Source: Dysidea avara
Taxonomy: Eukaryota > Porifera > Demospongiae > Dictyoceratida > Dysideidae
Direction of reading: 5' to 3'
Assembly (NCBI RefSeq): GCF_963678975.1
Contig: NC_089274.1
Span: forward strand, 20,979,133-21,043,132
DNA length: 64,000 nt
Part shown: positions 15,701 through 56,631 of the stretch, in pieces
Layout: the number at the start of each line of letters is the position of its first letter
Numbering within the stretch: position 1 is the stretch's first letter
The notes under the pieces: model-generated
The model's database searches: none
What the model was told of the DNA's origin: nothing
Seen by the model: only the letters and a program-made list of their open reading frames with translations
Made by a program: the position numbers and the translations under genes

Positions 15701-16885
15701 ATATAGCTACGCCCTCATAATAAGAGCCACTCCCCCACAATCAGTACATCTCTATAAGAGCCACACCTACCCTAGGAGATCTCCTGATACCAAGGTAACG
15801 TTGAGGTTGAATGATGACAGTCCATCGGTCCAACATGGACAATTGAGAGTGCTCAACATCTGACAAGATGTCCCCAATATCTTCATTCTCATAACCCTTA
15901 CCCCAACCCAACACTCTAGCTAGGTCATTGCCTGTCCCTAGAGGGAGTATGGCAACACGAGGGGGTAAGGGTAGGGATAATTCGTCCAACACAGCCAGTA
16001 CCCATCCAACAGTGCCATCACCCCCGCACACCAGTACACGCCATGTTACCCCTGGTAACATGCTGCACATTTGTAAGGCTTGAGCAGGAGGCACTTCATT
16101 AATGTCAACAACCTGAATAATGAAGCAATGGTTACCATGACAGTGTGATAACAACTAACCTGCACTGGGTTGAGAAGATTTCTGAATTTCCTCAAAATTC
16201 TTGCACCATCTTTCCCGCCACTTTTACAGTTAGCCAATACCAGCAGTGGGCTCCAATTAGGAATACCAACTGCTGGCTTTAGTTCATTGACACCCAACCG
16301 ACGCCTTCCTCTCCAACCAACCAGCTTCAAGGTGACACAGTTTGGAGGGATAATTAAAGTCTGATATGGCCCAAGACTACACTCTTCCACAGTCAATCGA
16401 TATTGTACTAGACACTTCTCATGAACAGTACGATGACACCATGCACACTTGTAGTCCGCCAGTCCTGGCTCATTACCACACTCAGTGTAACACTTAGAAC
16501 AGCTGCTGGCTAATGGCAGATTACCCCTGACCCAATGATGGGAACAAGAGCGACTGACAATTGCCGCCGGTTTACAAGTCTGATGCTTATCAGCACTATT
16601 AACACAATTGTCTTGGCTGCAAACACACAGTCCACAAGTGTCACAGTAGCTCCCTGATAGCACAGGCTCCATGCAGCTGTTACAATATGTCGGCTTGTCT
16701 AAGAAGTCAGTGTGGTACCAGCGGTGCAGCCGTTTGGTAGCCCAGCCTCGGAACAAGGCCGCCCTTGGTCGGCGACGCAAGAACCGCACAATGATCCAAC
16801 ACAGTATTAACACCATCACACATACAAAGGTCACTTGATAAAGGTCACCTCGCCACACCAACACTGCAGCAATCACCTCCATCAT
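12737..16885 (-). CDS. Diacylglycerol kinase epsilon type
   Basis: It phosphorylates diacylglycerol to phosphatidic acid at membranes. Seven exons join in phase: 16885-16160, 16112-15771, 14591-14478, 14218-14147, 14095-13968, 13668-13557 and 12853-12737, giving 536 residues (vertebrate DGKE about 567). The order matches DGKE. An N-terminal hydrophobic segment (about residues 15-38, [18 protein letters not shown]) comes first. Two C1 domains follow; the second is read from HHWVRGNLP through [14 protein letters not shown]. The catalytic region has the nucleotide-binding [14 protein letters not shown] and [16 protein letters not shown]. The accessory half has [36 protein letters not shown] and IQVDGEPW. 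The final codons SCLLKKVS end 115 bp from the stop of cytohesin A, so the two 3' untranslated regions may overlap. The start is the double ATG at 16885. Confidence 0.95.
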
Positions 16886-19800
16886 ACTGTAATAGTAGTA
16901 GTACCTACAAGATGATCAGGGGTAGTGGCATACACTACACAAAACAAAACTATGAAGGGACAAACAGCTGAATGTGAGCTGAGGGTTTTTAGATAGTGAC
17001 CTCAGAAACTGTCCTTTTTAGAGAGGTCAGTGTCCTTTATACAATTGGCCCCCAAGGACCCCCTGTACATGTAATGTACACATTAAAATGACCTCCCTAT
17101 GAATGAATAATACAACTTGTGAATAATGCTATTAATGATGTTTGTATAAAATGATATACATAAGCAATGATCTCAGGATGTTCCATGTTCCATGGAACAC
17201 TGCAGGAATTGTTTAGAAGTGTTATTTGAATACCATCTGACTACGGGGACTACACAAACACTTCCCTTCTCTTGTAGTACAGCTAGCCAACCATCAAATG
17301 ATGTTGACATCAATAAAGCTTCTGTGGACTTGATCGTACACCATAACAAATAAGAATTGGTAACTAAATACAATTGGTAACTAAACATGACAGTACAGTA
17401 TTAGAGACCAAAACTTGGAAAGTCAAAACATCAAGAGGACAGAAATTTGGCAATTTTACCATGTAGTTCATATGGATCAATAAAGTCCTACAGTTTGCAA
17501 TACTTTAGCTACTGCAAAGGAGACAGTACTCTGTAGAAGCAAGAGTTAATGTTAACTAGCCATGTGTGTTCACAGTAGTATGCCATGCCATTTTCTAGCT
17601 TTTCCCACACAGAAAATACACAATATTTTGTATCATCTCGCTGCAATTCTGAATAGTACTGAACTACTGGGTGCATCACCAAATAAGGCCACAACACCTA
17701 CAGTAGAGGTAGCCGGTCACAAAGATGACTACAAAGAGGTAACAACATCTACACACAAACCACTCGTGGGGGAAACAACATCCTAATAAGACAGTCCAGC
17801 GGATAAACTGATCAGGGTAGCACAATACTGGAGTTTTTTGGTTACAAATATAGGATCAAGAATTTCTATGTACTCTATACACTGACGTTATATATTTCCT
17901 TTGAAATGGATATTCGAATAATAGAATATTCGTTTGAGCCCTAAACTGTAATATTGAATAGATGAAAAAATAATTTGGTGAATTTCTGCATGGTACAGGA
18001 TTGCAATATAGGAGCTTATTTGCGTGCCGATGGTGCTTATAAGCTCCTGATAATATACATCCTATATTATCTATGATTGCAAGAAGCAAGGATGGTATGA
18101 TAGCACTTACATGGTCCTGGAACCACAAAGGGGACACACAGAGGTGAAGCCATATAGAGTTAACAACATTACAGTAACATGATATATTTGCTATTGATTG
18201 CCATCTATGGTATTGTATTGACAGGCGAGCACTCACACATGACAAACATGATAATCAAACCATTGAGTATAGAGTACACTGAACACTTGAGAGGTAATTA
18301 CTCAACTAATTGTTGCTATTATACAGGTGGTATGTGTTAAGGTATGGTCACTATGGGGACATGATTATGGTAACTACACATAATAAAAGTTACCCTTACA
18401 AAACCTACTCAATGTTGTTATTTGGTAATGGGCAGAAGTCATGTACCACCCTGTATGTATCAACATAATTATTGCTAAGTTTATTAGTATTGCCAGTAGA
18501 AAATTTTGAATATTGCATCACAACATGATAAATTATCACAACAATATAAATCGGCATGAAGCCATGGTGACAATTTTAGTACTCCTTTTTGAAATGTAGC
18601 AGTACAACACCCGACCTACTGGAAGTCTCTATTAAAGAAAATAAGTTTTGTAGTACTGTCTTAAATATCATTTCCAGTAAACTTTCTGTATAAGTGTTTC
18701 ACCATCATGTATCACAATATTAAAAAAAAAAATTAAACGTGATATAGAAATTCATCATGATAATCGATAATATTGATATATTACTCATCACTAAAGTACT
18801 AAAGTTTACAGTAGCTCAGATTATGGCAGCTAATTCATTGGTTTCAAAACATGCAAACTGTAGGAAAAGAATGTTCAAGAGAACTGTTACAGAAAATGAG
18901 CTCATGACAAAGTGACTATTGTACGGTCATGATTTACATTTCAACCTGAAAACCTACACCACAGGTAACTATGATAATGGGAAGTGACACATGACAACAG
19001 GAAATGTGTATCATCTAAATCCTCCTGTAGAACAACCTATCGAAAAGCTATGATGCAGCATTTCCGAATTTCCATTTTCTTAGTATAGCTAATGATGTCA
19101 TTAATTAAACATAATACATGCCTAACAACATTGCTAGCAACTGAACTAACTCGAGTACTAAGCGTTTCTTACTGAACTACAAAGTGTGCTTCATGCATTT
19201 ATACAAACAGCAAGGAATTTCTCACTAATACAGCTGTTCTGGGGTTCGCATGTGCTTCTATTGTAGCAGCAGAGCAAAAAGGTATAGGTGTGCTAGCACA
19301 GTTGAACATACAACTGTTTTGGTGCATTAAATTTACATGCAGTGCAAGACCTATTTCCCTATAAAAGGTTCATGGTGTTACAGTGAAGTAAGCCCCACCC
19401 TCTGAGCTAACAGTACAATCAGAGCATAGGGGCTCTAGGTTCTACTATTGTATATGCTAAATGTGTTTCCTGCCCACTGTCCACATCTGTTTACTACCAA
19501 CTCTAAAACACAAAAATTATATTCTCTATGAAAAAATAATCAACATGTTAACAAGTGTCAAGGATTGTTATTCCCACAGCAATACTTGCATAATGAAAGT
19601 ACAAGCTAAAGCTTCTATGCAGTTTATGTCAAATCATTAAGATGGAATGAATTGCCTGCTTCCCTTCTCACCCAAACAGGAAATTTATTTGAAGTGGCCA
19701 TACCTTCGAGAGTAAAGATTTTAAATGGACAAATTTTATAAAATCACAAAACACTGGTAACACAAATAGTTGTATAATCACAAGGGACAGTTGTTTTCCC

Positions 19801-20646: not shown

Positions 20647-23121
20647 ATGTCGCTCACAGTTGGTAAGCTAGTTGTAATGGCGTGTACTAGGTAACAAATG
20701 GGTTCCTGCAGGCCGTATCCCATCATATTATCGGGACGTACATTCTAAATTGAGTGGTAGTGAGGGCGGGCGTATAAGCAGACAGGCGTGGCAGTCGTTA
20801 GCTGATACAGCTTCCCTACCTTCAGCAGTGCTAGACCAGGTTAGGGTAGTGTACTGCAGTGTGTACTGTGTAGTCTAATAGTTGTATGTAGATTTGGCGC
20901 CAATGTAACCGCGGACAAGACTCGCTTGGCCAAGACGGGTTGTTTAAGTCACTGGCGCTTATTGCGGTGGCACAATTAGGAAAACCCGTGGAGGACTGGG
21001 CGCTTGATGCATATGCAGAAAAGGGTAGGTGGGGCTGCGAGTATCACGTGCTGTACTGCACATACGCACAGACCTACCAATACCAAAGCTGGCACCTCTC
21101 AAGGAACCAGAAAAGGAAGTGGTTGTGAAGCCATCAGATGTTTCACCCACAACTTTTGGTTACACCTACTCTGACCTGCAGAAGATGGACAGCATCACAG
21201 TACAGATTGTGCCAGAGAAGAAAGGAATGGTGTTCAAATATCAGGAATATCTTGTTGAGAGTAAAGTGAGGGTACAGACCTAGCTAGTTACGTTGATAGT
21301 GACAGGCTAATGTGTGTAGGTATTAAAGGTTAGGGTAGTGAGGAGGTTTAGAGACTTTGCTGCATTCCACGAGTGTCTGCAGTGTCGATATCCATTCCGC
21401 CTTATACCTCGACTGCCGCCTAAGAAGATTGCAGGTTAGTTATCTTATTTCTGAAATATTTTTCATAACGTTATATAGCATCTCCATCATTTATTGAACA
21501 ACGCCGCAAGGCTTTGCGTCGGTTTTTGTTATTAATCAGACGTCATCCAGTTTTGAGAGATGATGAAATAGTTCGCTACTTTTTCTCCTTCACGGGAGCT
21601 GAGGTGGCACAACACATTAAGGAGAGGTACAAGGCTGTTTTGGATGAAGCTTCAACCAGTGAATATGCTCGGACAGCCAGGGTAGGTGTTTATCTGATAG
21701 TGTGTCTTATAACTGGATGTGTTATAGGAACATGTCAACAAGGATATGGTTACTAGGGCAGACAAGGCAAAATCACAAATATCTATTATGCTTCAAACTA
21801 TTGACAAACTATTGGGTGTGGCTCACCAGATGGAAGGCCATACTGATGGTGAGCATTAGTTGTAATTGTGGGCGTGGGTGAATTGTAGTTTTATAGCACT
21901 ATCAAAGAACATGAAGGTTTATGAGAAAGAACTGAGTAATATTGGTGGTGGGGGCAGTGCTCAGGACACTTCAGGACAGTTGTCACTATGGAATATTGGA
22001 GGTGGTGACTTGTGGAGCACAGTTAAGAAGGGTACCAGAGATCTGGCTCCAAAATTTTCTGATGTTGGGGAAAAGGCCACAGAGATGGTACTATTAGTTT
22101 AGTACAGGGTTCTGCCTCCAGTGTGGGCATAACTCTGGTTAGTATGTTGTGTGTCATAATTACCCCCTGCCTTGTCACAGTACAAGAAAGAGGTAGCAGT
22201 GACAGAAAAACTGGCATACTTTTACGACTTGTTATTGGCTTATCAAGATTTGTGTGAGCGTCGTGAGAAGAGCCACTCTAAGCACCACAAAGCTCTTACT
22301 AAAGCACAAACTGCTTTTAAAGAGAAAGATCGAATCACCAGTCAAGGACAGAGGCTGGTATGTGCTGGGATAATGTGTGTACAATGTGTGTACAATGTAT
22401 AATAAGTATAGCACACAGTGTAATATTGGGTGTCTTGAGACCACAATCAGTAGTGTCCTGATTTTCTCACATACAAAGGGATAGTTTGATTACAGCAACT
22501 AAATGTCTGGTTCATGTAGGGGTCCACAAGCAAGTGTCCACATTAACAGATTCTACATTACTACTTGTATAAGTGTGTAGCATATGTGTGGGTACACTAC
22601 TTTTATAATACACACACCACACACACATTACAACCCCTACATTATCACATGCTTAATGTTATTTAGTCACCAGAAGACACTGATAGAATAGAGCGGGTGA
22701 GTCACTTACCACACATGTCAATTGATGTGCACACCATTAATGTGTATAGAGAGATGACGAATTAGTTAGAGCTGAAGGCAAAAATTTTTTTGCAATCTTC
22801 TGTCTCCACTTGGAGTCCCAACTCGTACAAGCTAACCTTCAGTTGTTACTAGACGTCCTTCATGATATGGTCACCACACAGGTGGTCAGACATGAGCAAG
22901 TGAGGGAGTAACGGTAGGTGGGCATTAATTGATGTCTTTTACAGCTCCACAAAGCATGGAAAGAGCTGTTACCATTTGTCAGCAGGAGCAGCACCAGTGG
23001 TGTTAACGTAGCTAGTAGCCTCACCAGTAGTGGTAGTCCTGTACTAGCTGCTAAACATGATGGTTCAACAGCATCATCTCCACCAAAATCACAAGGATTT
23101 GGTGATTACTCTCCATGGTAA
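20647..23121 (+). CDS. SNX8-like sorting nexin, EH-like region + PX + BAR
   Basis: SNX8/Mvp1 proteins bind phosphoinositides and shape endosomal tubules. Twelve exons join in phase: 20647-20662, 20712-20839, 20892-21024, 21072-21265, 21320-21434, 21479-21681, 21728-21848, 21897-22087, 22181-22357, 22667-22696, 22750-22899 and 22945-23121, giving 544 residues. Residues about 5-85 look like an EH domain (YYRDVHSKL, GRISRQAWQSL, LPSAVLDQIW, LIAVAQLGKPV). The PX domain begins DSITVQIVPEKKGMVFKYQE, with the RRFRDFAAFHECL and YPFRLIPRLPPKK basic motifs. The rest is helical and matches the SNX8 BAR domain (YDLLLAYQDLCERREK). The end is a Ser-rich tail, GDYSPW. Human SNX8 is shorter and, as I recall, has no annotated EH domain. 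Confidence 0.9.
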
Positions 23122-25773: not shown

Positions 25774-26108
25774 GACGATTATCACCTCACCACTATACAG
25801 CTAACTCACTAAGCTGATGCTATCTCACGAACTGTTTGTATACAAAATGACGCGGTATATAATTCACCGATTTCTTACGTAATTCTTAGAATAAATTACC
25901 ACTACGAATATTAGTCTATGACGTATTAAATTACTATAGAAAAATGTGGGGGTGTGTGTGGCTAGCAGTATAGCAGTTCCTGTGGCTTTAGACTTTATTC
26001 ATCAGCTAATTTCAATCTACCTAACTGATGTAGCTAGCTATAAGCTTTGCTTTTGTGTGAGTGCATAAGTTTAGTTTTAATTTATTTTATTTTTTTGGTT
26101 TTGTGTGT

Positions 26109-26481
<373 letters not shown>

Positions 26482-31188: not shown

Positions 31189-32712
31189 TTAAATAATTTC
31201 TGTCACAAAATGTATTTCACCCAGGTCACGCAGAGCTTGTTTGGCTGCTGATTCCTTGGCCTTAGCTAAATCAGCTGCCACTTCTCCTTCAAACTTGCCA
31301 TTCCTGGGAACTAGTACTGAGCTGACATAGCCATTACTATGGGTTTGAGCACTGTAACTAGGGGAACGATATCCCTTCTTTGAACAATAGGCTAACAGCT
31401 TTTCCTGATAAGACTCCACTACAGACCGACTGAATATCTCACTGTGGCCAATATTTGGTTCTGCCAGTGCTTGTTTGTTTACATCTTGTTTAGCTTCATC
31501 TCTGTCCCGATATGACTGTCTGCTACGGAACTTGTATGTCACCCCATTACTATGGCAATTAAGCTCACAAGAGTACCATGGTCTTCCATCCATCCCAGAA
31601 GGTGTCTCAGTGATCTGATATTGACAAGTGATGCCTTGGGCTGTCAACACCTCTCTCAAGTGGGATTGTGATGACCCTGTAGTAGTGTCCATCGCTTCAT
31701 CACTATTACTGGTTGATGTAGCAGTCAGTACCAGGGCATCAATGCTGGCAAGTTGTGGGCTTACAGTCATTGCAGGTGGCTGGTTAGTAGCAGTCATAAA
31801 AGCTTGCTGCGTGAAGGAAGGTTGTGGATCTACTGCTGCTGCTGCTGCTGGGTGATCCAGTGGTAGCTGGTCAGGAGTAGCAGGATTAACATGATGTATG
31901 AAGGGAGGGTTGGGAAATTGCATAGCTAACATAGGATGTTGAGGTATTGAGTACTGTTCCTCGGGCATGTTATTAGGTCGTTCTTTGAGGAAGTAAACAT
32001 TTTCTATTAAACTGTTGGTAAACTCTGCTGTCTGAATAGCATATTCTTTGGGTAATCTGCCGCAATATTCTGTCAACTTTTTGTTAGCATTGACAAGGAT
32101 TGATAAAAGACCTTCATTACATGTGCACATTTCATGAGCTAACAATTTCATCCACAGGCCTCCACTGGCATTCTCGTATGCTTTGTGATGTTTTGTAGTA
32201 GAGTAGGCCACGATAACCCCTGCTTCTGAGGAAAGTCTCTCTATAAAACTACCACCCTTTGGAGATCGGGATACTAGTGAGATACCTGGGTCAGATTTGC
32301 CTCCACGACAAGCGTCAATGAAGAACATTCTAATCGTGTTCACTAGAGTACGGTTAGCACGAGGCTTGAAGGCGTCTACAAGGTCTGCTACATTTATTGT
32401 ACTGTTATCCTGTAATATCAGCTCTCCATCTTGTCCGTGTCCAGAGAACACTACGGCAATACGCTTACACCCGTTAGCTGGCGAGTAGTCATAACTTCTC
32501 AGTTTAACACACTCTGACATAAGATCTTCTTTCTTCACATTTTGTCTTACGATCACCTCGTACCCAAGGAAGGTAAACGCCTGTTTCATCCTACGAGCAT
32601 CTTCCACTGTTCCAGATAACAAGTCTCTGTTTGGAGTATCTTTATAATCATTGGAGAAGATAAGAGCAACACCAACTTTCCCTGGAGAACACGCGCGATT
32701 GTTCCCGGCCAT
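31189..32712 (-). CDS. Caspase-fold (C14) protease fused to two dsRNA-binding domains, copy 1
   Basis: This is a single uninterrupted frame of 507 residues starting at MAGNNRACSP; an in-frame ATG at 32754 would add 14. The protease domain (about 10-250) starts KVGVALIFSNDY and has the catalytic His in VVFSGHG (His92) and Cys in FFIDACRGG (Cys135). A p10-like part has GVIVAYSTT and GGLWMKLLAHEM. The residue two before Cys is Asp, as in metacaspases and paracaspases, not Gln as in caspases, which suggests cleavage after Arg/Lys. A Pro/Thr/Gln-rich linker (about 260-345) leads to dsRBD1 (about 352-416, with YSCELNC, YKFRSRQSY, DEAKQDVNKQAL) and dsRBD2 (about 431-497, SYQEKLLAYC then KAKESAAKQALRDLG). 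Known dsRBDs bind A-form duplex RNA without sequence preference. I infer dsRNA-induced clustering and protease activation; this is untested. A tandem paralog is at 38628. Confidence 0.92.
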   Translation of the reverse strand: MAGNNRACSPGKVGVALIFSNDYKDTPNRDLLSGTVEDARRMKQAFTFLGYEVIVRQNVKKEDLMSECVKLRSYDYSPANGCKRIAVVFSGHGQDGELILQDNSTINVADLVDAFKPRANRTLVNTIRMFFIDACRGGKSDPGISLVSRSPKGGSFIERLSSEAGVIVAYSTTKHHKAYENASGGLWMKLLAHEMCTCNEGLLSILVNANKKLTEYCGRLPKEYAIQTAEFTNSLIENVYFLKERPNNMPEEQYSIPQHPMLAMQFPNPPFIHHVNPATPDQLPLDHPAAAAAVDPQPSFTQQAFMTATNQPPAMTVSPQLASIDALVLTATSTSNSDEAMDTTTGSSQSHLREVLTAQGITCQYQITETPSGMDGRPWYSCELNCHSNGVTYKFRSRQSYRDRDEAKQDVNKQALAEPNIGHSEIFSRSVVESYQEKLLAYCSKKGYRSPSYSAQTHSNGYVSSVLVPRNGKFEGEVAADLAKAKESAAKQALRDLGEIHFVTEII

Positions 32713-32802
32713 AGCTTCAATTAATTTGAAAAAAATCCCAATTACGTCATACAAACATAATTAAGTACAAAAAACACAATAAAATTATTATTATGGACGC
32801 AT

Positions 32803-34563
32803 TTAGAAGTCCCATTGAAGTGAGAACGGCTGGTTAATATTGAGAATACCAAAATCCACCACCAGTGCCTGCAAAGGAATAATATACACAGAAGATATAT
32901 TAATAGGCAGTGGTTTTAATAGAGCCTTTTCATCTCCTTGACAACCATTTTCGTCGGCCATATTGCTTAACAATTATGTATGCAGCAGGCCTATAGACAA
33001 GCTGAAATTAGCCAATCTGCATAAACCGCTACCAAGTAACAGTCCAAGCTGTGGTGTATGGGTTTGGTATTGGGTAAGAATTAACATAATATAAAATGCA
33101 CGCTAACCTGTAAAGTAGTTGGAAATATCCCCATAGAAAGCTTGATGCTGATGTTCGTAAACATGGCCGAAATACGGTGTAATAAACAAAAAATTACAGC
33201 ACCAATTTTGGTCATCAAGGAGATGGGAAAGCTCTATACCGAACCGAAAGTTGGTTCAACAAGGTAATGACAAATTAATCTTATGCTAGCGGGTCGCTGT
33301 ATGTAAATCACATGATCTCTTAACAGAGATCATGTCTTTACTACATGATCTCTTAAAAGAGATCAGTCTTTACTACACGATCTCTTAAAAAGAGATCATG
33401 TCTTTACTACATGATCTCTTAAAAAAGAGATCATGTCTTTACTACATGATCTCTTAAAAAGAGATCATGTCTTTACTACATGATCTCTTAAAAAGAGATC
33501 ATGTCATGTCAAAATCTTTGTCTTTACTATGGGATATTTTACCTAAACATACTAGAAGAGTTCACTGTAACTCACCATAGTAGTATTGACCCAGTGCCAG
33601 CCATAATCAGGTAGACCAGATCCATTTAGTGACATTTTACTGGGTGACTGGTCTAGTCCTAATATGGTTACATCACTGATGTTTGATGAGCTAGCAGGGG
33701 GATACCCTGATGACATTACTGTACTGATGAGTGAGGTCTAGAGGGTTCAGGATCACATGATCTCACATGATGCACACACATCACCTACCCCATTAGCAGT
33801 ATAACTGATCAAACTGTAGTTACCATTTTGTATTGTACCTGTATGGAGATTGAGAATTGTAATGAGTAGCTCCATCTATGTCGGTGGATACTCAACACTA
33901 AAAAAATGTTCTATGTGAATTCGCTGAGTCTCATTCATGGCTCACTCTATAATGGAATGCACACTCCAACAACAAAATATTCTAATTAAACAGACATTTT
34001 GGATAATCGAAGCAAGCTGTCCTCTTGTTAGCAAGCACATAAGAACTCAACTCGTGCTTGGAAATGATAGAGTCCCAAATAGAATCTACCATTTATAGAC
34101 ATCATAGTTTAGTACCAGCTATTGCTCCATTGCAATGTTATACCACAAGAGTCCAGAAAACTGGTAAACAAGCAAACTCCACAATTTAAGTGATTGCTCA
34201 ATCAAAATATGAGTGTTGTGATCAGTTATTCCAATAAGTCAATGTGCATTACACATCACTCTATTTTGGTCTCTCAACCACTCTATACAATAACACATAC
34301 TAATTGACTCTCCATCATCCAGAAATAGTAGCCCTGAGGCTGACTGGGAACTGTCTAGTGCCACAAGTAGGAAGAATGGGTTGTCACGGCTATGGGAGGG
34401 GGAGTAACTGAACACTGCAGCAACACATCGGCCACACCCACCTTGCATTAGTAGTCAGGTTTGGTTGTTGCTGTGGTAATATCTTCCCACCCCTGACATG
34501 TAGTGGTATGACCTTGATCGGAGCATCAAGTGTGACATGACCTTTATCAGTTACCTCCATCAT
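32803..34563 (-). pseudogene. 5'-truncated duplicate of the GH31 alpha-glucosidase gene (last five exons)
   Basis: The exons are 34563-34442, 34389-34301, 33838-33789, 33737-33576 and 32868-32803. They correspond one to one with the last five exons of the full gene (42025 to 40371). The first four have identical lengths (122, 89, 50 and 162), and the last is 66 versus 63 bases. All GT-AG borders and frames are intact: APIKVIPLHVRGGKILPQQQ, LFLDDGESI, TVMSSGYPPASSSNISDV, VVDFGILNINQPFSLQWDF. The 162-base exon differs from its partner at about 15 positions. No upstream GH31 exon exists between here and the next gene, and similarity stops just above 34570. Without the catalytic part it cannot be a glucosidase. 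I call it a pseudogene, though the preserved frames leave open use as a spliced-on alternative end. Confidence 0.85.
33311..33504. repeat. Tandem array of six hairpins, ATGATCTCTTAAAAAGAGAT
   Basis: There are six units of about 34 bases, each a palindrome of GATCTCTT and AAGAGATC around a short A-run, joined by CATGTCTTTACTACAT. It lies in an intron of the truncated GH31 copy. The corresponding intron of the full gene lacks it. Confidence 0.93.
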
Positions 34564-34820
34564 CTGTAACCAAACAATTAAAGTGCCACAACATGATCCT
34601 CAACACAATAGCAAAGAAGTCATGTCCACTTAGAGAGCATTCATGAGTCCTGCCTAGTTATATACTAGACCCAAGTAAGGACTCTGACAACCTCAATATT
34701 CAATACTAGACCACTAACAGATTTGGGCATATTGTGAAGAGTCTTAAAACGAGAATGTACAGTAGACCTGTAGTTATCTGAACCCCAATGTGTCTCAGGC
34801 AGATAACTGAAGCCCACATA
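34564..34820. other. Junction region of the segmental duplication
   Basis: Similarity to the full GH31 locus ends within a few bases of the exon at 34563, so the duplication breakpoint is here. The rest is AT-rich and unassigned. Confidence 0.45.
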
Positions 34821-35113
34821 CAGGGCTGCCAAGAGAAATTATGGGGCGCACAACTTCAGCCTAGCTATAAGCTGAAGACCAAAAAAAGGTCATTACATGC
34901 TAACAGTGACAATAGCTTCCCTCAGCAACTATATCTCCTTATTTATATATAAACTTGTTACACTACTCCTCTGAAGAATACTGTGACTGCTCTATTAGAG
35001 TATCTAGATCCGACTGCTCTATTAGAGTATATCGATCTTTTAAACAGGTATTCGGGGGGCCCTTGGTGGGGGCACCTGGGGCTCCTTTCAGGCTGGGGCC
35101 CGGGGCGGCCCTG
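34821..35113. mobile_element. hAT-type MITE with perfect 8-bp target duplication
   Basis: The ends are CAGGGCTGCC and GGCGGCCCTG, flanked by the identical 8 bases cccacata (34813-34820 and 35114-35121). It is 293 bp and non-coding. Two copies of GACTGCTCTATTAGAGTAT sit about 75-120 bases from the right end, the same place as in the MITE at 5338. Confidence 0.88.
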
Positions 35114-36364
35114 CCCACATATGCATTCATATACAGAACTATGTTGAAATACTCTAATAGAACATACACTTGTACTCTTAATAGAACAATTTCAGATAAA
35201 CAAATAACCATAGCCCTTACTCAACCCTGACCCTTAGATAATCAACTAAACAAGTGTCTACCTTGTGTCATGCATGCACCAACTGTAACAAAGGCCACTA
35301 CAAACGTGTGGGTACAAATGTTGGATACATACCATCCATGATCCATTCACTAACTGCTATGACCAAATTACTTTTCTCTGTCATTGGAAAATGGTCTGGT
35401 GGATTTTCAATGTATAGCCATCTTGTACACTGGAGACATGATGATTGGGTTCTAGAAGTCCTAAGTTCTATATATGTTACAATCATCTCCCGAAACAAGT
35501 CAACTTGACATGTCTGCTGAATATTGATAATGTATATACTGTTTAGTGTCATTGGAGAGTATCTGAACTCATGGTGTTAGCTATTTGGTCCCAACTTTTA
35601 ATTTGCATGAATAAGCTACTTTGGTTGAGTGTTTGTTAATGTATACTAGTAATGTTGATAACAGAGGGAAGTGTTAGAAACTACAGTTGTTCAATATTAC
35701 TTTACGTTGTTAACTAATTCCAACTAATGAACAGCATCAAACATTCAAAAATATCACAATGCTTCAGCTAATAGAACAGTTAAAGAAAGTGGCTGTGCAA
35801 AGCAAAAGTTACATCAAGTGCATTAATTAAGTATGTTAACCAATAGCAATCAAAAAAATCTTAGTTAAGACCAAACTATCATTGGTTAATATCTAATAAG
35901 AAAAACACTCTAATAGAGCAGTCAGTATGGTGACTTGTAATAGTGTGTGCATCATTAGACACTTCCATAGCAGAAGTTTTTTGGTAGCTAAAACAGCTAG
36001 TTAACTGTAGTATGCATGGATCACAGCCATGCTCTACATGACCACAGAAAATATGCTCAGACATGCGGTTGCAACATAATGATGCCGGAATGTTTTGTAG
36101 TATTAGAGAATTTGTACCACAGGTAGGTCTAATTAATCAATCAGGTTTTCTTAACTTGGTACTTATTAAACAAAAGGTATGTAGAAGAATATAACTTGGG
36201 ATTCCACCTTATATGGTATAGTAACACATGATAGTTCATATCCCACTTAAAATCAGGATTTACAACAGAAGTATTTCAAGATTGTTTACTAGACTCATTA
36301 ACTAGATAACTTATCTGATAAAACAGCATATAGCAGCATATATAACTAACTTAGTATTGATGTG
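35114..36364. other. Spacer, duplicated block, second copy
   Basis: 35500-36090 is the counterpart of 29130-29560. Part of 35200-35500 resembles 42660-42800 (CAAAGGCCA, GTGGATT, AGCCATCTTGTA). I recognise no gene. Confidence 0.45.
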
Positions 36365-36640
36365 CATTACTGGTCCTGATGGGATTAGTAATTTCTGCAC
36401 CCATACAGTGTAAAAAGTACATGGCGGATATATACCTAGTCTCATATTGTTTTAAAGGGAGAATGTTTGAATTATAGACCGATTATGCTCATTACAAGCA
36501 AAGTTTTAGATGTATAATTATTAGCATTCAAGACTCTTCAAATCAAACTCTCAGTATGACTTCAGACATAATTGATTACTCTTACTATACTTTATTTTAA
36601 AAGACTTTGCATGCAACGGCTTTTGATAAAGCTCCACACA
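36365..36640 (+). mobile_element. Decayed LINE reverse transcriptase fragment (RT domain 5' part)
   Basis: Across several frames and stops the translation reads GPDGISNF, then NYRPIMLITSKVLDV, then TAFDKAPHR. These are in the order of RT motifs for non-LTR elements. It is broken throughout. A further RT fragment on the same strand is at 37770. Confidence 0.6.
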
Positions 36641-37252
36641 GATGATGTTTATATCATACAAATTACATACAATGGTATAACTTGGCTAGTAAATGGCCAC
36701 TTCATTAACAAGACAGTGTCACTCATTGTGCATCCCATATATTATTATATAGGGATAACGGTCTTGAATATTTTGTGTCAGAGGCATGCACGTTATTTTG
36801 TTAACAGTTTATGCTATTGCTGTTCCATTAGAGTAATTACATGGCTGTTCTATTAAAGTCATCATTGCATTTTCTATTGTGACTTGCTGAACGAGACATG
36901 CATCCTCTTTTTACTTTCCATAGTCCCAAGTGCAAAACAAGTCACCAGCATTAGCTATGCCAGCTCTTTAGTTTTAATTCCCTATTTTTCATTAAAAAAT
37001 TAAATTTGATGCATCCCTATCTCATAAGTGGCCCTATTGATGAGGTCTTACCATGCATTTCTCAAAAGCCAAAAAAGATGTATTGCAAATTACAAATTAC
37101 AAATAAGTGGAGCATGGGAATTATAGACTGAAACTCTGAGCACTGCAGCATATAAAGTTGCACATTGTCAATAGCTATCTAAACTAAAACAGCCAAGCTG
37201 TGAAAAAAGTCTGCGGCCTCCATAAAAGCCAAAAAAAAAGTAAATCAGAGGT

Positions 37253-37446
37253 GGCAGCCAAGAAATAGCTGCAATGATGTTAATGCCAATAATTTTTAAT
37301 GATGAAATATAACATCTTTTACCAGGCTGCAGGACCAAGTGTCCTACAGACCTTCAGCACTTGTCCTGTAAAGCCTTTAAAATAAGTAAATAAGTGTGAT
37401 CATTTAATATGATAGGTATTAACATCATTGCAGCCATTTCTTGGCA
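37253..37446. repeat. Inverted repeat, about 31-base arms
   Basis: GCCAAGAAATAGCTGCAATG (left) pairs with CATTGCAGCCATTTCTTGGC (right) with one or two mismatches, and the pairing continues for about ten more bases. One arm is also found alone at 29888-29925. It is probably a small fold-back element. Confidence 0.7.
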
Positions 37447-37769
37447 GTCAACTTTGAAATTTCAGCTTGATTGGAGTCCGTATTAATTTTATGTTTTATG
37501 GTAGATTTTGCAAAGTGTGATAAAGTAGGGGGAAAAACAACTGGTCGCTTGTATCTCAGAAATGGCTGGGGCGATTCCTTCAAATTGTGGACTCCCTGCA
37601 TCTAATTTGTTCCAATCAGTCATGGTATCATAGAGCTACATATGTATGTGTAAAAATCCTCCTCACACAGTGTGGCGTGCCAGCTTCTCGGGGCACACGA
37701 CACATGTGTCTTGATATAAGTGGTTCCGAAGCTTCATGCAGGTAGTCCGCTCCAAGATAATTGCACATA

Positions 37770-37915
37770 AAACAATGGCCATATAATTCGGTGTCAATGG
37801 TCAAATATTTAATTGGATTAAAGATTTTCTGCTTGACAGGAAACAGCAAGTCATTCTTGGAAATGTGCACAGCTCATCTTGCAGTGTTTTTTCCTTACCA
37901 TAAATTTACAAAGTA
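37770..37915 (+). mobile_element. LINE reverse transcriptase fragment (FLxDRxQ region)
   Basis: One frame reads GVNGQIFNWIKDFLLDRKQQ and then VILGNVHSSSC, which is the conserved stretch before the RT active-site region in non-LTR elements. It stops before the FADD motif. It may be the same old insertion as 36365-36640. Confidence 0.7.
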
Positions 37916-38627
37916 TCAAAATGATGCTTTTAAAAACTTTCCCATATAGCAATCCCTCGGCAACACCCCATGCACTTGTTTAAGTTATTTTTCATGAATG
38001 AAACTAAAACCAATTAGCACAGATTGATCAGATACAGAAATTTTAAATGCACAAAAAAATTCAATGCACAAGCTATGCTAAAATGGCTTTGTAATTTTAT
38101 ACACATGTTATGTTCCTAGAAAGGAATGTCAATCTCTGCATGCATGTAGTAGTTTTAATATTATCACATAATCACTTTAAACATCAATCAAAGTAGTAAT
38201 CAAAAAAATCCTCAAAACTATTAAATCATTTAGGTTGTGGACTTAATGTTTTGTTACAAAAAAAATAACAGGTTTAGTTATGGCAATATGCATATGCAGT
38301 ACTGCACCCACACATCTTCACAAGTCAGAAATTAGCAGCAAATTCTGAAAATTTAGTGATGGTAGCACCTTCTATCACTTAGATACAAGATTTTGAGTTG
38401 GTATTGGAAATTTATGATAAGAACTATATTAAATTTTAACAAAATAGTACCATTTGCAATCTAATAGCTATATTATTCATTTTAGCCTCAATGTGTTAAT
38501 ACTAAGCCCTCTGTCTCCCGCTCCACTGCATACAAATTCTAGTCACCACGTAAACAGTGCTTCTTCCATACCATGTATCTTTCTTATGATTCCGTAAAAC
38601 TTCAAAAATATATGTAAAGCATAAACA
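37916..38627. other. 3' flank of caspase-dsRBD copy 2, duplicated
   Basis: This is non-coding and similar over most of its length to 30500-31188 (for example GCACTTGTTTAAGTTATTTT and ATGAATGAAAC in both). It marks the downstream part of the tandem duplication. Confidence 0.6.
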
Positions 38628-40088
38628 TTAAATAATCTCAGTCACAAAATGGATTTCACCCAGGTCACGTAGAGCTTGTTTGGCTGCTGATTCCTTGGCC
38701 TTGTCTAAATCAGCTGCCACTTCTCCCCCATACTTGCCATTCCTGGGAACTAGTACTGAGCTGACATAGCCATTACCACGCGTTTGAGCACTGTAACTAG
38801 GGGAGCGATATCCCTTCTTTGAACAATAGGCTAACAGCTTTTCTTGATAAGACTCCACTACAGACCGACTGAATAACTCACTGTGGCCAATATTTGGTTC
38901 TGCCAGTGCTTGTTTGTTTACATCTTGTTTAGCTTCATCTCTGTCCCGATATGACTGTCTGCTACGGAACTTGTATGTCACCCCATTATAATGGCAATTA
39001 AGCTCACAAGAGTACCATGGTCTTCCATCCATCCCAGAAGGTGTCTCAGTGATCTGATACTGACAAGTGATTCCCTGAGCTGTCAATACCTCTCTCAATT
39101 GGGACTGTGACGATCCTATACTAGTGTCCATTGTGTCATCACTACTTGAAGCTGGTGGAGGTACTTCATTCAAAGTGGGAGGATTAGGGTCAATACTTCC
39201 GGTATAGTTCACGGGTACATCCTCGGGTACATCAGTGCTGGTGACAGCTGGTTGCACCGTGGTAGTACTAGTAGTAGTATCATTTAGACTGGGGAATTGT
39301 ACCACTAATTGCGGAATGGATGGTCTCTCTTTTAGGAGATAAACATCTTTTGTCAACTGGCTAGTGAATTGTGCTGTTTGGAATGAGTGCTTACTGTTTT
39401 CAAAGTGTTTCGTCAGTTTATTGTTTGTGTCAGTCAGCACAGTTTGTAAACCTTTGTCAGAAGTACGCAACTCCTGAGCTAAATATTGCATCCACAAACC
39501 TCCTTTGGCCGGATCTTCGAAAGCCCTGTGTTGCTCTGTCGTAGAATAGGCAATGATTATTCCTGCTTCTGATGAAACTCTACCATCAAAGCGACCGCCT
39601 CTCGGACTGCGAGACAAAAGTGACTGACTAATTCCAGGGTCAGTATCATTACCACGACAAGCGTCAATAAAGAACATCCTCACAGTGTTAGCTAGAGTAA
39701 CGTTACCACTTGACAATGGCTTGAACGTGCTTACGAGTTCGTCCATTGTTACAACTTTATCATCTTGTAATATCAGCTTCTGCTCTAAGCCATGTCCAGA
39801 GAAAATAACGACAATTCTCTTACACCCATTGGACGAGTAGTCATATCCTGCTAATGTTTTGCACTCTGCAAGAAAGTTGTCCCGCGTTATATTTCTTCTT
39901 AGCACTATGTCATAGCCAAGGAAACTAAACGCGTCATACATCGTACGTGCATCTTTATCTGTGCCGGGTAGTTCTGGTCTACTGGTCCCCCGATAATCGT
40001 TTGAAACGATTAGCGCAATACCCACTTTGTGCCGTCCAACAGGAGGACGAACGCCTTGACATGCTTGAGTAGCCATACTGCTCGCCAT
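38628..40088 (-). CDS. Caspase-fold (C14) protease fused to two dsRNA-binding domains, copy 2
   Basis: This is an intronless frame of 486 residues from MASSMATQAC; the second Met (residue 5) is an alternative start. The protease domain begins KVGIALIVSNDY, with His99 in IFSGHG and Cys144 in FFIDACRGN. It has the same Asp two residues before Cys as copy 1, and GGLWMQYLAQEL in the p10-like part. The linker is shorter (Thr/Pro-rich). The two dsRBDs differ from copy 1 at only 7 of 156 positions, whereas the first 100 or so protease residues match at only about half. Every other complete gene in the window is interrupted by introns, so the intronless state is notable. The pair lies inside a segmental duplication and reads away from the GH31 gene's 3' end. 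The function is inferred from domains only. Confidence 0.92.
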   Translation of the reverse strand: MASSMATQACQGVRPPVGRHKVGIALIVSNDYRGTSRPELPGTDKDARTMYDAFSFLGYDIVLRRNITRDNFLAECKTLAGYDYSSNGCKRIVVIFSGHGLEQKLILQDDKVVTMDELVSTFKPLSSGNVTLANTVRMFFIDACRGNDTDPGISQSLLSRSPRGGRFDGRVSSEAGIIIAYSTTEQHRAFEDPAKGGLWMQYLAQELRTSDKGLQTVLTDTNNKLTKHFENSKHSFQTAQFTSQLTKDVYLLKERPSIPQLVVQFPSLNDTTTSTTTVQPAVTSTDVPEDVPVNYTGSIDPNPPTLNEVPPPASSSDDTMDTSIGSSQSQLREVLTAQGITCQYQITETPSGMDGRPWYSCELNCHYNGVTYKFRSRQSYRDRDEAKQDVNKQALAEPNIGHSELFSRSVVESYQEKLLAYCSKKGYRSPSYSAQTRGNGYVSSVLVPRNGKYGGEVAADLDKAKESAAKQALRDLGEIHFVTEII

Positions 40089-40370: not shown

Positions 40371-49671
<9,301 letters not shown>

Positions 49672-49878
49672 AGTTCTGCTTAAAGTAATTTTACGCCGCG
49701 CCCCTCGTGTTTAGCGAAGAGGGGCGGGCGGCACAATTGAGCTGTCACATGATCTATAGACACGCGTTTTAAAATTTATTTTAAACTCTATAAGTTTAAT
49801 TGTTTTATTAGGCGCTCACAAGCACTTGTTGATATATAAACCCAAACAAGGCCCCTATCACTACACAATCGAGACGTC
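49672..49878. promoter_or_regulatory. Bidirectional promoter between GH31 and the EMI-like gene
   Basis: Only 207 bases separate two start codons that read away from each other, so both promoters must share this space. It contains GATATATAAACCC at 49831, a TATA-like sequence about 40 bases upstream of the rightward ATG. A GC-rich part lies next to the GH31 start. This is inferred from spacing. Confidence 0.55.
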
Positions 49879-50976: not shown

Positions 50977-53900
50977 TTAGGGCGTGCAGTATTGTTTGAA
51001 TGAAGCCCACCCTGATGCACATACAGACACAACATTACTCAACAGGATGACAACACTACACTTACTGACACTCTCGGCCAAACTCTTGTCTTCCTGTAAA
51101 CACCTGTAACAACAGGACCAGTGAACTGTTAACAATTGCCACATTTCTCATACACTATGTAGCATGAAATGTCAATAGACTCTGGTGGTTGTCAATAACT
51201 CTACTACAATATAACAACAGCTTCAGGATTAGTTACTATAAAGTGGGGAAATCAGCCAATCTGAAATGTGTCATGAGCATACAAAAATTAACCTACTCAA
51301 TTGTGCCATAGTAAAGTAAATAGCAACTAAATGTACTAGTTTTCTAAACTAAATGACTTGCCACCTACAGCTCTACTGAACATTATGACTAGCCTCTGTA
51401 TATTCTAACCCAGTCCTTAATAGCTAATCCTAACCCAGTCCTTAATAGCTAATCCTAACCCAGTCCTTAATAGCTAATCCTAACCCAGTCCTTAATAGCT
51501 AATCCTAACCCAGTCCTTAATAGCTAATCCTAACCCAGTCCTTAATAGCTAATCCTAACCCAGTCCTTAATAGCTAATCCTAACCCAGTCCTTAATAGCT
51601 AATCCTAACCCAGTCCTTAATAGCTAATCCTAACCCAGTCCTTAATAGCTAATCTTAACCCAGTCCTTAATAGCTAATCCTAACCCAGTCCTTAATGATG
51701 CTAAAAACTCCTTGTCCCTATTACCATTTATAAAAGTTAGTTGACACAAACCAAAGTGTCTGGTTACATCATGTGATGGCATCACCAAAATATGGCTGCC
51801 ATTAAGCCACACAGGACAATTTAGAAACAGATAATAATGCTTCCCACTTAACTATGGAATGTCAAGTTACCTGATCCGGTCATCTTCCAAATTTATCACT
51901 AGACGATTTCTCTGCTCCACCAGCTCCACATATTCTGCTACTAAAGCATCTTCTTCTAACTGTTGTCGTAGTGACTTAGCTAAAACAACAACCGCTATAT
52001 ATACCATTGACATGGTCTGGCATAGCCCAGAGGGTCTGGTGACCCTAGAAAAAGCCACTTGTGTTATTGGAATGCAATTGTGATGTAAGATTTCAGTGCG
52101 TGACAAAACTGTAGCATGGTTTTCACATTGACATATAAGACTTAGGCTGGCATGAAATTATTAGGTCTTTGTGTGTTTGAGGACCTCAGTATGTTAACTC
52201 AGGCCAGGAATGAGCTTTATTATTTTTTATGGTATAAGCTCAGATGAGGTATAGGATATGTGCTGCATGTCACGTATTTAATTGCCATTTAGTATTCATG
52301 TAATTATCAATATTCACAGTACAAAACCAACAAATCATGTGGTTTACTGGGGCTCAGTGGATATTCAGGTTGTAAGCTTCAAGGAAATGCACATTGTTTT
52401 GAAAGAGCCCCTTGATAAGTATGCACACTCTATATTTCACGAAGAAATCAAAAACAAAATACATAGCTTTTAGGCACACATGAAGTGCTATCTAGATATC
52501 TACTGATCCATCATTTGCTGGTTTTGTACTGATATTATTGAGAATTGTGTGAAATACCAATATGCAATTAGACAAGCAATGCACAACACATGTCTTACCT
52601 CCTCTGGTATAAACTGTTGCTCTTTGTTTAAGATAAGAATATATGATAAGTGTCTTCTAACTTTGAATTCATGCCTGGTGTCTTGATATGAAACGTGTGT
52701 ATAAAAAATTCAAGGCATTCTTTATACTTAAACTTGTCAATCCTTAACCCCTACCCCAAGCCACTCACAATTAGGGTCCTTGCTCATTGTTTGGTGTATT
52801 TCATCTTCTAGTTGATGCTGTCGATCAATTAGCTCCATATAACGAGCCCTGTGGTACAACTCACATGAGGTCACATGATGCTACTGATGACACACTCACA
52901 TGTATACCAAGTCAGCTTCTTGTCGGAGCAACTTGTTCTTATCACAGACGAGGTCAAACCATTCCTTCATCATGTCATCATTGTCATCTTCGTCTCCTCC
53001 TTTGGGCAACCACAAAACCATAAGTGGGTAAAATATTTTGGCTGGGTAAAATATTGGGGATAAACTAGTTAAATAGCAAAGGAAGGGTCTATACAACTTG
53101 TACGAGCTCAGAGTACACAGAGGCTCTTTAGCATTTAGAGACCCTGCTTTTGATAATAATATTTAAGTAGTATTCAAGTTGTTGAAGTAATAAAAGGACT
53201 GGGAAAATATAAGACAAAATATTTGAAGAGTAAATATTGAGAAATAAAATATCAGAGGGTTATTTTATTGCAGAGATAAAACATTGTGAGGCCGAATGCC
53301 TCTGGCATGAAAAAACGGCTTTTAGCTGAATGTAGGAATTAAATAAAAATTAATCAATTAATAAAAATACTGGAAGGGTAAAAATCTAAATATTGATATT
53401 AGAAGGTCATGCCAAGCTACATTTAAGCATTCCAACATTTGGTATCAGAGTTATATACTAGTTATGCTTTCTTGACCATTGTCCAATTATGTAGCCCTAT
53501 GTCTCATGAACTCCGGCACTCTGCTTCATTGCAATGGCTTGTAGTTTGATACAAAGGGACAAAATAACTGGGAAAAATCTTGGGAACAAAATTTTGGCTA
53601 GAAATATAAACTGGCTCCAACAAATTAAGTTAACTGAGATCGGCTACAGAAAAACAAAGATGGGAACAACATCCTGTGTGTCCCAAAGGGAAGAGAAAAC
53701 ACTGTAAACCCACTAGAATCTCTCCCTCACACCAAATTACCTTGTCTAAGCTTTTTCTCCATCTGAACACCCTGGAACTCTAGCTCGCTCAATTGTCGCT
53801 CCAACAAAGTGAGCTTATGGCTGATGTCCTGAAGAGTACCTCCCTTGCTGCCACTTATCCCCAGGGAGATCTCTGCCGTTGTAGCTCTGTGTACACCAGA

Positions 53901-56631
53901 GGGTGGAGCATTGGTGGATGTGGCTGCAACTGATTGAGACTCTGGAAGCTTTTTGACAATTTTTGGTGGAGGAGGACGGCTTGGCTTAGAAGGTGTGTGA
54001 TCTGTTGTTGGAGGTACATGGTCTGTCTTCAGCGGTGTGTGGTCTGCCTTTGGAGGTGTGCGGTCTGCTTTTAGAGGTGCAGAGTCTGGTCTAGGAGGTT
54101 CACTGTTAGTTCTTATTGAAAATTCAGGACCAGTAGGAGGTGCACTTTCTTCTTTAGTCTCTTGATTTTCTCCAACTTGATCCATTTTAGGAGGGAACTT
54201 TTGCTTGCGTGATCGAGGAGGCTTAACTGGAGGCAAATCTTTTGGCTGCTCTGGGGGCTTTGCTTGCTCCTGTTCAACTTTATCATGAGATATCTTCTTC
54301 AACTGCACTCCAAACCTGGACTCTCCTTCAGATGGTGCCCTCTCAACAGTTTCTGTACTTGGGTCATGAGCAGGTTTCACAACAGATGGCTTGTGACTTG
54401 ATAGTGGTACGGCCACTTTATTACTGATGGGCTTAAGATCTTTTGCTGACTTCTTTGATGCCTGCTTCTCTTCTTCATTCAACTGTTGCAGTGAGATACC
54501 TCGCTCTGCCATAGAACGCTTCATTGACATGCTGCGCACAAGGTTCCTGTAGTCAACTTTACAATAGAATTTATCTGAGGGTTGATCATAGAAATAATCA
54601 CCGGTATTCAGTAGACAATTACACTGACTACATTTCAGACAGGACCGATGGAACACGTGGTTCTCCACCGAGATACGCTCCAACAAGAACACTCGTTCAC
54701 CACATCCCTCACACTTTTCACTACCCATTATTGAGTCGCGTCTCAGCTGTTTGGAGCCTGCTCTTACTGTACGCTTAGGTATAGGTCTGTTAGGTAGGTC
54801 ATCTTGTGATGACATATTTGTTACTTTAATCACAGGAGGGCCAGTGGAGTCCTTGACTACTACTGGTTTAGCTTCATCACTTGATTTGGTCACAGGTTGC
54901 CTGCTCCACTTAGTTGCACCGACTTCTGGCTTATTTGAGCTGGGAGTAACAGCAACTGAAGAAACTGGTTTGGTGACTGTTGATACAGATGTAACTGGCG
55001 CTACTGGTTTAGTCACCACTGTGTGAGTAACTGGTGCAGCCGGTTTAATAACTGGAGTAGTTATCTTAGCAGGTACAACAGGTTGAGAACTGGTTGAAGT
55101 AACAGGTTTAGCAGCTGATGTGTGAACAAAAGACTTGGTAACCTCAGGAGCAGTTGGCTTATTAACAGTCACAGTAGTAGAAGTAACTGGTTTAGTAACT
55201 GATGAGTACGTAACTATTGGCTTAGTAACCACTGGAGCTGCTGGTCTAGCAGGTTTAGTGACAACAGGTGTAACTGGTTTAGTGACAACTGAACTAGCAG
55301 GTTTACTGACAACAGGCGCAACAGGTTTAGTGACTACCGAAGTAACAGGTTTGGTAGGTGGCATATAAATATTTGAAGTCGTTGTGGTCTTATTTGTAGC
55401 TGAAGTTGAGATTGGGGTGGAGTTGACAACAGCAGGAGGAGCCCCTCCCCCTAATTGCTTTGCTCCTTGCTGCCTGCTTTCTTTAGCTTGCATGGCACTA
55501 ATTAGAGAAGACAAGTTGCTACGAGCACCTGCAACTGATTGACTGGTTGGAGGCATTTTGGGAGTATGGCTAGCTGTTGTCTTAGTAATACTGCTAGGGG
55601 CTGAAGGGGTGTGACTAACAGTTGTCTTGGTTACATTGCTGGCAATTTTAGGAGTGTAGCTAGCTGTTGCCTTAGTAACGGTGCTGGGAGCTGAAGGAGT
55701 GTGACTAACAGTTGCCTTGGTTACATTGCTGGTAATCTTAGGGGTGTAGCTAGCTGTTGTCTTAGTAATGGTGCTGGAAGATGAAGGAGTGTGACTAACA
55801 GTTGCCTTGGTCATATTACTGGTAATTTTAGGAGTGTGGCTTGTTGCTGCAATAGTTGGCACCTTAACAGGTGGTGCTCTCACTTGATTGGCTGAAATGG
55901 TAGAGGGTGTGGCACTATATTGAGTGGGAGTGGGTGATTTAATGATGGCAGGAGCTGCAGCACTAAATGGAGGAGTGGTTCTGCTATTCGGCAGCTTCTG
56001 ATTGGCTACAACAGAAGGCTTGGAAGTTGCAGCAACAGTGGGTGTGGTTACTGCACTACTATATTTAGTAACAACAGGCTGATTATTTCTTGGTCCAACG
56101 TTCTCCACCTTAGGCTTCTTTATATCTGCTGCTGCCCCAGCCACACCTCCTGCAGAAGGAGCAGAAGGTTTGGCTCCCTGAGGGGTCTTATCCTTGAAAT
56201 AGTTGTAGTACTGGGACACATAGGTGCACACACTTAGCTTATCAGGAGTCTCAAGTGCTAACATGTCCTCAGCATCTAATAGTGCTGCAATGTTGAGCAC
56301 CCTTTCTGCTACATCAAATGCCTATTACATTACATTGCCATATAGGGTAAATGATATATTGTACACAGTTATCTCACCAATTGATTGTTTTTAATAATAT
56401 CACCAGGTTTTAACTGGTCAAATTTGCTACAAAAAACAAACTAGTATGATAAAGGCATTGATGAACAAAGAGGACGGCATACATTAGGTCAGGTCGGAAG
56501 TGATGTATAATAGCACAGAATGCCAGACCATCACGAAATGATGTGGTCATGTTCTTAATGTTCACACCAGGGTAGCCATCAGTGACATTCTTACACCATG
56601 CCTGCAGTGCCTTCACCCCTGACAGGGCCAT
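50977..56631 (-). CDS. MICAL-like protein (CH, LIM, bMERB domains)
   Basis: MICAL-like proteins link Rab GTPases on recycling endosomes to actin. In-phase exons are 56631-56483, 56426-56378, 56321-53741, 52999-52900, 52848-52769, 52613-52599 (optional 15-base exon), 51979-51871 and probably 51103-50977, giving about 1069 residues. The CH domain (about 1-105) reads [27 protein letters not shown] and [20 protein letters not shown] long Ser/Thr/Pro/Val-rich region with internal repeats follows. The LIM domain (about 602-659) shows CEGC, HRSC, CSQC and FYCKVDY zinc ligands. A Pro-rich stretch leads to the C-terminal bMERB coiled coil ([26 protein letters not shown]). There is no monooxygenase domain, so it is MICAL-L and not MICAL. 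The ATG at 56631 may follow a 5' untranslated intron. The last exon is the least certain part. Confidence 0.9.
51104..51403. other. Intron of the MICAL-like gene
   Basis: This separates the probable last exon (51103-50977) from the exon at 51979-51871. It is AT-rich and carries no feature before the tandem array that begins at 51404. Confidence 0.4.
51404..51700. repeat. 25-bp tandem repeat, 12 copies
   Basis: The unit is CTAACCCAGTCCTTAATAGC plus TAATC, copied 12 times with almost no change (one C to T at 51655). CTAACCC resembles the animal telomere hexamer, but only one partial hexamer occurs per unit. It is in a MICAL-like intron. Confidence 0.97.
53100..53700. other. Intron of the MICAL-like gene
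   Basis: This AT-rich intron contains runs of AAATATT and TAAAATAT. No inserted element with clear ends was found. Confidence 0.4.
55560..55860 (-). repeat. Coding tandem repeat in the MICAL-like gene
   Basis: Repeats of about 84 bases encode about 28-residue units of the form [11 protein letters not shown] then [10 protein letters not shown], roughly three and a half copies in frame. A second low-complexity stretch with TKPV-type units covers about 54950-55370. Both lie in the linker between CH and LIM and are probably disordered. Confidence 0.85.

Follow-up and report, generated by a model that had tools for sequence, protein, structure and literature searches.

The stretch of DNA analysed here, called the window, covers 64,000 nucleotides of the genome of the sponge Dysidea avara (contig NC_089274.1). 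It contains two tandem minus-strand genes, gene A (31189..32712) and gene B (38628..40088), which join a caspase-fold protease to a tail of double-stranded RNA-binding domains (dsRBDs). Each gene is a single unbroken open reading frame (ORF), encoding 507 amino acids in gene A and 486 in gene B. The gene A protein is composed of a caspase-fold domain (residues 9-247, 31972..32688), a disordered linker (residues 248-346, 31675..31971; the predicted local distance difference test score, pLDDT, is below 50 at residues 260-348) and two dsRBD folds, dsRBD1 (residues 347-417, 31462..31674) and dsRBD2 (residues 435-496, 31225..31410). Gene B has the same layout by alignment, with a caspase-fold domain (residues 23-250, 39339..40022), a dsRBD1 region (38901..39113) and a dsRBD2 (38664..38849). 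The caspase domain was recognized by Pfam in gene A (E 1e-28) and in gene B (PF00656, E 9.8e-37), and the latter also matched caspase-7 (E 8.4e-20). Alignment to solved caspases placed the SGHG motif with the catalytic His92 at 32434..32445 and the DACRG motif with the catalytic Cys135 at 32302..32316 in gene A; the corresponding motifs of gene B are at 39789..39800 and 39651..39665. A sequence-only reading of this stretch had described both genes as C14 caspase-fold domains with intact SGHG and DACRG motifs fused to two dsRBDs. The PF00656 search and the alignment bear out the domain and the motifs, and the fused ORFs stand, while the first dsRBD is a call from a predicted fold.

Genes A and B are real genes. 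The ratios of nonsynonymous to synonymous substitutions (dN/dS) between them are 0.17, 0.27 and 0.14 in three parts, 0.17 and 0.14 being those of the two halves. Three similarity searches gathered a family of 49 proteins, P0001 to P0049, including the two window proteins (P0001 and P0002), and relatives with the window layout were found on other contigs. P0001-P0018 show the complete two-dsRBD layout, P0019 lacks the N-terminus, and P0020 and P0025 are tail-side pieces. An artefactual or chance ORF is ruled out by selection (dN/dS) together with the relatives that have the same fusion. For the more specific idea that each ORF merges two separate genes or pseudogenes, one for the caspase half and one for the dsRBD half, the partial look of an adjoining duplicated piece of a GH31-like gene could be cited. 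However, both ORFs are free of stops, dN/dS is below 1 in all three parts, and the fusion recurs in 17 other family members (P0003-P0019, of which one is truncated at its N-terminus) and in the named gene model Em0022g187a (P0045), leaving this idea extremely improbable. P0001 and P0002 share one window, yet their listed contigs measure 50.26 Mb and 4.88 Mb, which perhaps reflects two assemblies or haplotypes.

The dsRBD-protease fusion is a sponge family and not a local accident. P0045 has a caspase domain and four dsrm stretches (E 1.1e-33), and its Em-type name follows the scheme used for the genome of Ephydatia muelleri (PMC7385117). A survey of relatives for the architecture gave the window layout on other contigs and this four-dsRBD model of E. 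muelleri type. A single C-terminal dsrm match was found in P0023 and P0028-P0031, above the cut-off only in P0030 (26.2 bits, E 1.2e-5), and P0022 gave a weak Dicer_dimer match (E 0.16). The tail of P0045 seems to lie in separate exons, with an intron inferred, because the ORF of P0044, whose protease is almost identical, stops before any dsRBD. The lack of a tail in a row does not prove that the gene has none, since ORF-derived rows may stop at introns. P0045 and P0048 (Em0022g185a) have near-by gene numbers and almost identical proteases; the former has the four dsRBDs and the latter ends in a GIDR-type repeat, and the two may represent another tandem pair or a single gene whose model was split. 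A limited search, a single scan of each contig set with two short peptide patterns, gave 49 pattern matches on prokaryotic contigs and 18 on viral contigs, with no confirmed relative in either. None of 19 rows matched NCBIfam at E up to 0.1.

We next consider the substrate pocket. Two papers (PMC4357240, PMC4626109) describe the P1 Asp of caspase-7 substrates as bound by Arg87, Gln184 and Arg233, and Asp365, Asp462 and Glu500 of MALT1 as sitting in places similar to this S1 trio. In alignments to caspases, gene A carries Leu32 (32617..32619) at the Arg87 place, Asp133 of the DACRG motif at the Gln184 place and Glu180 (32173..32175) at the place of Arg233 and MALT1 Glu500, and gene B carries the equivalents. 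Among the family rows with a letter in the 49-row alignment, the catalytic His and Cys are kept in 47/47, place 32 is Leu in 45/46, place 133 is Asp in 47/47 and place 180 is Glu in 45/47. The window proteins and P0023 were the queries in the similarity searches that gathered these rows, and the S1 counts describe this family and not sponge caspases at large. Both window proteins have the fold and the His/Cys dyad of caspases, with Leu/Asp/Glu instead of the basic Arg/Gln/Arg S1 set. The acidic S1 of the MALT1 type, defined by three places including that of Asp365, is present at the two that were aligned (Asp133 and Glu180). As judged from sequence, the protein is probably an active cysteine protease, and an Asp-cutting death caspase is unlikely because the S1 residues resemble those of the Arg-specific MALT1.

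The same evidence bears on a death caspase of Asp specificity that long double-stranded RNA (dsRNA) would activate. Such an enzyme would agree with the retained dyad and with the nearest solved structures, which are caspases among the matches listed. However, all three P1-Asp-binding residues are replaced, and the intersubunit loop has no Asp conserved across 19 rows, which makes this explanation very unlikely. The "death-type protease" of the sequence-only reading, in the Asp-specific sense, is likewise unsupported. A basic motif is conserved in the loop: the pattern SR[SAG]P[KR]GGxF is found in 19/19 rows (P0001-P0019), and its gene A form, SRSPKGGSF (32245..32271, with pLDDT below 50 at residues 143-161), is a possible basic cleavage loop. 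A basic P1 preference (Arg/Lys) and a basic self-cleavage loop are mutually consistent predictions. MALT1 carries death and immunoglobulin (Ig) domains beside its protease. Pfam found no death or Ig domain in the window proteins at E up to 1, and the ORF begins just ahead of the caspase domain. MALT1 was absent among the 50 structure matches listed, which does not exclude kinship.

In the AlphaFold model of gene A, the tail folds into two units with the alpha-beta-beta-beta-alpha topology of dsRBDs, and the fold of dsRBD2 is also supported by superposition. The dsrm scores of the window proteins, 13.7 and 17.2 bits, come from the second domain only and lie under the gathering score of 23 (E 0.0077 for gene B), as do those of P0023, P0028, P0029 and P0031; P0030 and P0045 pass. 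We consider the tail to be a dsRBD tail because these last two relatives carry dsRBDs by profile. With Pfam E up to 1, the 19-row alignment A1 gave dsrm in 17/19 rows, DND1_DSRM in 16/19 and Dicer_dimer in 12/19, the best E being 2e-4. A dsRBD2 profile (9 of 21 rows) weakly matched HYL1 (E 0.22) among sequences of solved structures, and comparison of the dsRBD1 and dsRBD2 profiles detected no homology. The identity of dsRBD2 is well supported, and dsRBD1 is a putative dsRBD called on its modelled fold. The claim of two dsRBDs therefore holds for dsRBD2 and for both modelled folds of gene A, and falls short in the dsrm scores below the cut-off and in the lack of a profile match for dsRBD1.

RNA binding by the tail is plausible. 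At the position of KKxAK, which we take to be the RNA-contact motif of dsRBDs, dsRBD1 reads R-D-E-A-K in both genes, keeping two of three basic residues, and its Arg404 and Lys408 are invariant in 19/19 rows of A1. The second domain has L-A-K-A-K (gene A) or L-D-K-A-K (gene B) there; its net charge is 0 to +6 in 21 rows, and its isoelectric point (pI) is 8.8-9.8 in 20/21. The main alternative is that the tail consists of protein-interaction dsRBDs, which would pair with one another or attach to a Dicer-like protein or another member of an RNA pathway, bringing the protease to that partner and not to RNA. The third dsRBD of TRBP, PACT and Loqs is a protein-interaction dsRBD of this kind. Such a tail would suit the missing first two lysines of KKxAK in dsRBD2, the near-zero net charge of dsRBD1, the order of the Pfam matches in gene A (Dicer_dimer E 0.0016 ahead of dsrm E 0.097) and the first rank of Loqs-PB, a Dicer partner, in the Foldseek search. 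The basic character of dsRBD2, the invariant Arg404 and Lys408 and the four dsRBDs with clear profile scores in the E. muelleri-type relative point the other way. We regard a protein-interaction tail as a serious though rather unlikely explanation.

The protease halves and the tails of genes A and B differ in history. The tails share 95% protein identity with a synonymous divergence (dS) of 0.18, and the protease halves share 56% with a dS of 1.82, a rough value near saturation (dS is infinite in two windows there and in one more across the linker edge). The protease halves are old paralogs. In the protease tree P0001 groups with P0003, P0004 and P0005 (99/99) and P0002 with P0006 (100/99), whereas the tail tree joins P0001 with P0002 (85/84) and P0005 with P0020 (100/98). 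For the tails, the approximately unbiased (AU) test, applied to clades chosen after the trees had been inspected, rejected both the B-type clade (p 1e-4) and the A-type clade (p 7e-4). It also rejected a grouping of P0001 with P0002 for the proteases (p 4e-5) and of P0005 with P0020 for the small-subunit stretch (p 1e-47). Heads and tails disagree in the same way in P0005 and P0020, another pair of relatives. Most simply, recombination or gene conversion has, at least twice, kept a shared tail alike on two old types of protease. Alternatively, a recent duplication may have been followed by replacement of one protease half. Under either account heads and tails differ in history.

The fusion, the dyad, the S1 change, the dsRBD2 fold, the conservation, the wider family and the split histories all have computed support. 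Building on them, we hypothesize an RNA-scaffolded, proximity-activated protease of basic specificity that is used against foreign dsRNA; we hold this proposal tentatively, at somewhat less than an even chance, and its basic specificity, RNA binding, activation by pairing, loop self-cut and antiviral use are steps that we infer. The acidic S1 pocket would accept Arg or Lys, as in MALT1, and not Asp. The C-terminal dsRBD folds would attach to duplex or structured RNA and bring several copies of the protein together on a single RNA molecule, where the caspase domains, inactive as monomers, would pair and switch on. The activated protease would perhaps cut SRxP(K/R)GG, its basic intersubunit loop. 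Its most likely use would be the sensing of viral or other foreign dsRNA, leading to cell death or a signalling cut, and dsRNA is reported to trigger apoptosis in a cnidarian (PMC11251625). With one tail type on two diverged proteases, the tandem pair could answer the same signal with different cuts. The one-protein switch suggested by the sequence-only reading is anatomically sound: protease and sensor-type domains lie in one frame, dN/dS is 0.17 and 0.14, and the family has many members.

A developmental or housekeeping enzyme would use the same parts differently, as an Arg/Lys-directed protease that is tethered to structured cellular RNA and trims proteins there, with no immune role. The dN/dS values, far below 1 in all three parts (0.17, 0.27 and 0.14), agree with such an enzyme, and cellular RNA is a frequent target of dsRBD proteins. 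The large number of diverged members and the recombination among paralogs are more usual in defence genes, although this is a weak point. We consider a housekeeping role improbable.

Several observations weigh against the RNA-scaffolded protease. The S1 assignment comes from sequence alignment and not from a superposed ligand, and the nearest folds among the matches listed are caspases and not MALT1. Thr is found at place 180 in P0026 and P0027, and P0049, which is perhaps misaligned, has Glu at place 32; all S1 places are blank in P0020 and P0025, as is place 32 in P0019. In the tail, dsRBD1 alone matches no Pfam dsRBD (0/10 rows submitted), its profile (10 of 21 rows) found no match among sequences of solved structures (PDB), and a truncated tail model gave its first helix as a strand. 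Its net charge is -2 to +2 (21 rows), and dsRBD2, having lost the first two lysines of KKxAK, usually keeps one basic residue there. RNA binding may be weak or absent because of the lost lysines, the near-neutral dsRBD1 and its missing profile support. The family tree (47 of 49 rows; P0020 and P0025 are too short) does not allow dsRBD gains to be counted, because ORF-derived rows may end at introns, as the comparison of P0044 with P0045 indicates. The discordant trees differ in their rows: 18 for the proteases (without P0019, P0020 and P0025), 20 for the small subunit (without P0025) and 21 for the tails. P0005 and P0020 are assumed to belong to one species. No immune gene was recognized in the flanks, which apart from the GH31 stretches were read by eye only.

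Combinations of caspases and dsRBDs have a precedent in bivalves. The report of dsRBD-bearing caspase-like proteins from sponges that the sequence-only reading mentioned was not recognized among the matches listed in the open-access literature (supplements excluded), and a bivalve report was found in its place. The oyster caspases Cg3C-like A and B, reported in 2021 with two N-terminal DSRMs, are presented in that paper as potential viral detectors, and the DSRM motif is called previously unreported for any caspase (PMC7836458). A Mytilus caspase paper shows DSRM in a figure legend (PMC10967218). As described in PMC7836458, the oyster proteins resemble the window proteins in having a caspase domain and two dsRBDs in one protein, in being encoded by two closely spaced genes of a single pseudo-chromosome, which the authors interpret as a duplication, and in having a viral-detector role that is proposed only. 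They differ in domain order, with DSRMs in an N-terminal prodomain, whereas the window genes have C-terminal dsRBDs after a long linker. The oyster proteins also group with executioner caspases and have QACXG according to the legend, while the window genes have DACRG and a non-caspase S1, a comparison made by description (PMC7836458).

MALT1 shares with the window proteins the acidic residues Asp462 and Glu500 at S1, where caspases have Gln and Arg (PMC4357240, PMC4626109), and P1 Arg is predicted here. The window proteins differ from MALT1 in having no detected death or Ig domain, a dsRBD tail as the sensor-type part, and caspases as nearest folds among the matches listed. Em0022g187a is closer, with a related protease, the Leu/Asp/Glu S1 set and C-terminal dsRBDs; it differs in having four dsRBDs with strong profile scores and a tail seemingly in other exons. 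The kinase PKR and the engineered dsRNA-activated caspase oligomerizer DRACO likewise join dsRNA-binding motifs to an effector working by proximity on long dsRNA (PMC3144912). The PKR effector is a kinase and not a protease, and DRACO is man-made; its abstract says of the direct linkage that it is one "which viruses have never encountered" (PMC3144912). The window proteins are a natural candidate for DRACO-type linkage. A fuller proposal is that sponges possess a natural DRACO counterpart, in which duplex RNA would gather basic-specific caspase-fold proteases and paralog recombination would keep a common tail on diverged heads, giving one signal and several cuts; this we consider possible but doubtful. 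The window proteins differ from the known systems in the C-terminal order of the dsRBDs, in an S1 set unlike that of caspases and in having diverged heads with a common tail.

If dsRNA activates these proteins, one molecule would combine sensing with killing or signalling, and no adaptor, helicase, kinase or death-fold relay would be needed in between. The route from dsRNA to proteolysis would be unusually short, and this in one of the earliest-branching groups of animals. With an acidic S1, standard caspase substrates and inhibitors (DEVD, zVAD) would be expected to miss the activity, which sponge caspase assays may overlook. The differing histories of heads and tails would also make these proteins a natural example of one constant sensor paired with varied effectors.

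The neighbouring genes on the minus strand are GH31-like. The longer one (40371..49710, outer limits by eye) has a trefoil exon at its 5' end (E 2e-10) and a TIM-barrel exon (E 1.6e-15), and gene B lies downstream of it. A partial second copy (32803..34599) is part of the tandem duplication and consists of exons corresponding to the 3' exons of the longer gene; no 5' exons were recognized at this copy. Its apparent stop codon (32803-32805) lies 90 bp ahead of the gene A ATG. The spacing between duplicated copies is mostly 7.3-7.6 kb. Two GH31 exon stretches duplicated alongside genes A and B gave dS values of 0.22 and 0.32, with the rows "GH31 last" (wrong frame) and "exon b" (running into introns) left unused. 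Between gene A and the duplicated GH31 exons, about six tandem 34-bp units, each with an inverted repeat, occupy 33310-33505 (consensus ACATGATCTCTTAAAAAGAGATCATGTCTTTACT). Rfam at gathering scores and ARAGORN each gave 0 hits on the 64-kb window. Other genes, named by eye, are presumably MICAL-like (53730-56664), diacylglycerol-kinase-like (15744-16915) and sorting-nexin-like (21029-22399). A (TG)n tract of 190 copies lies at 26102-26480.

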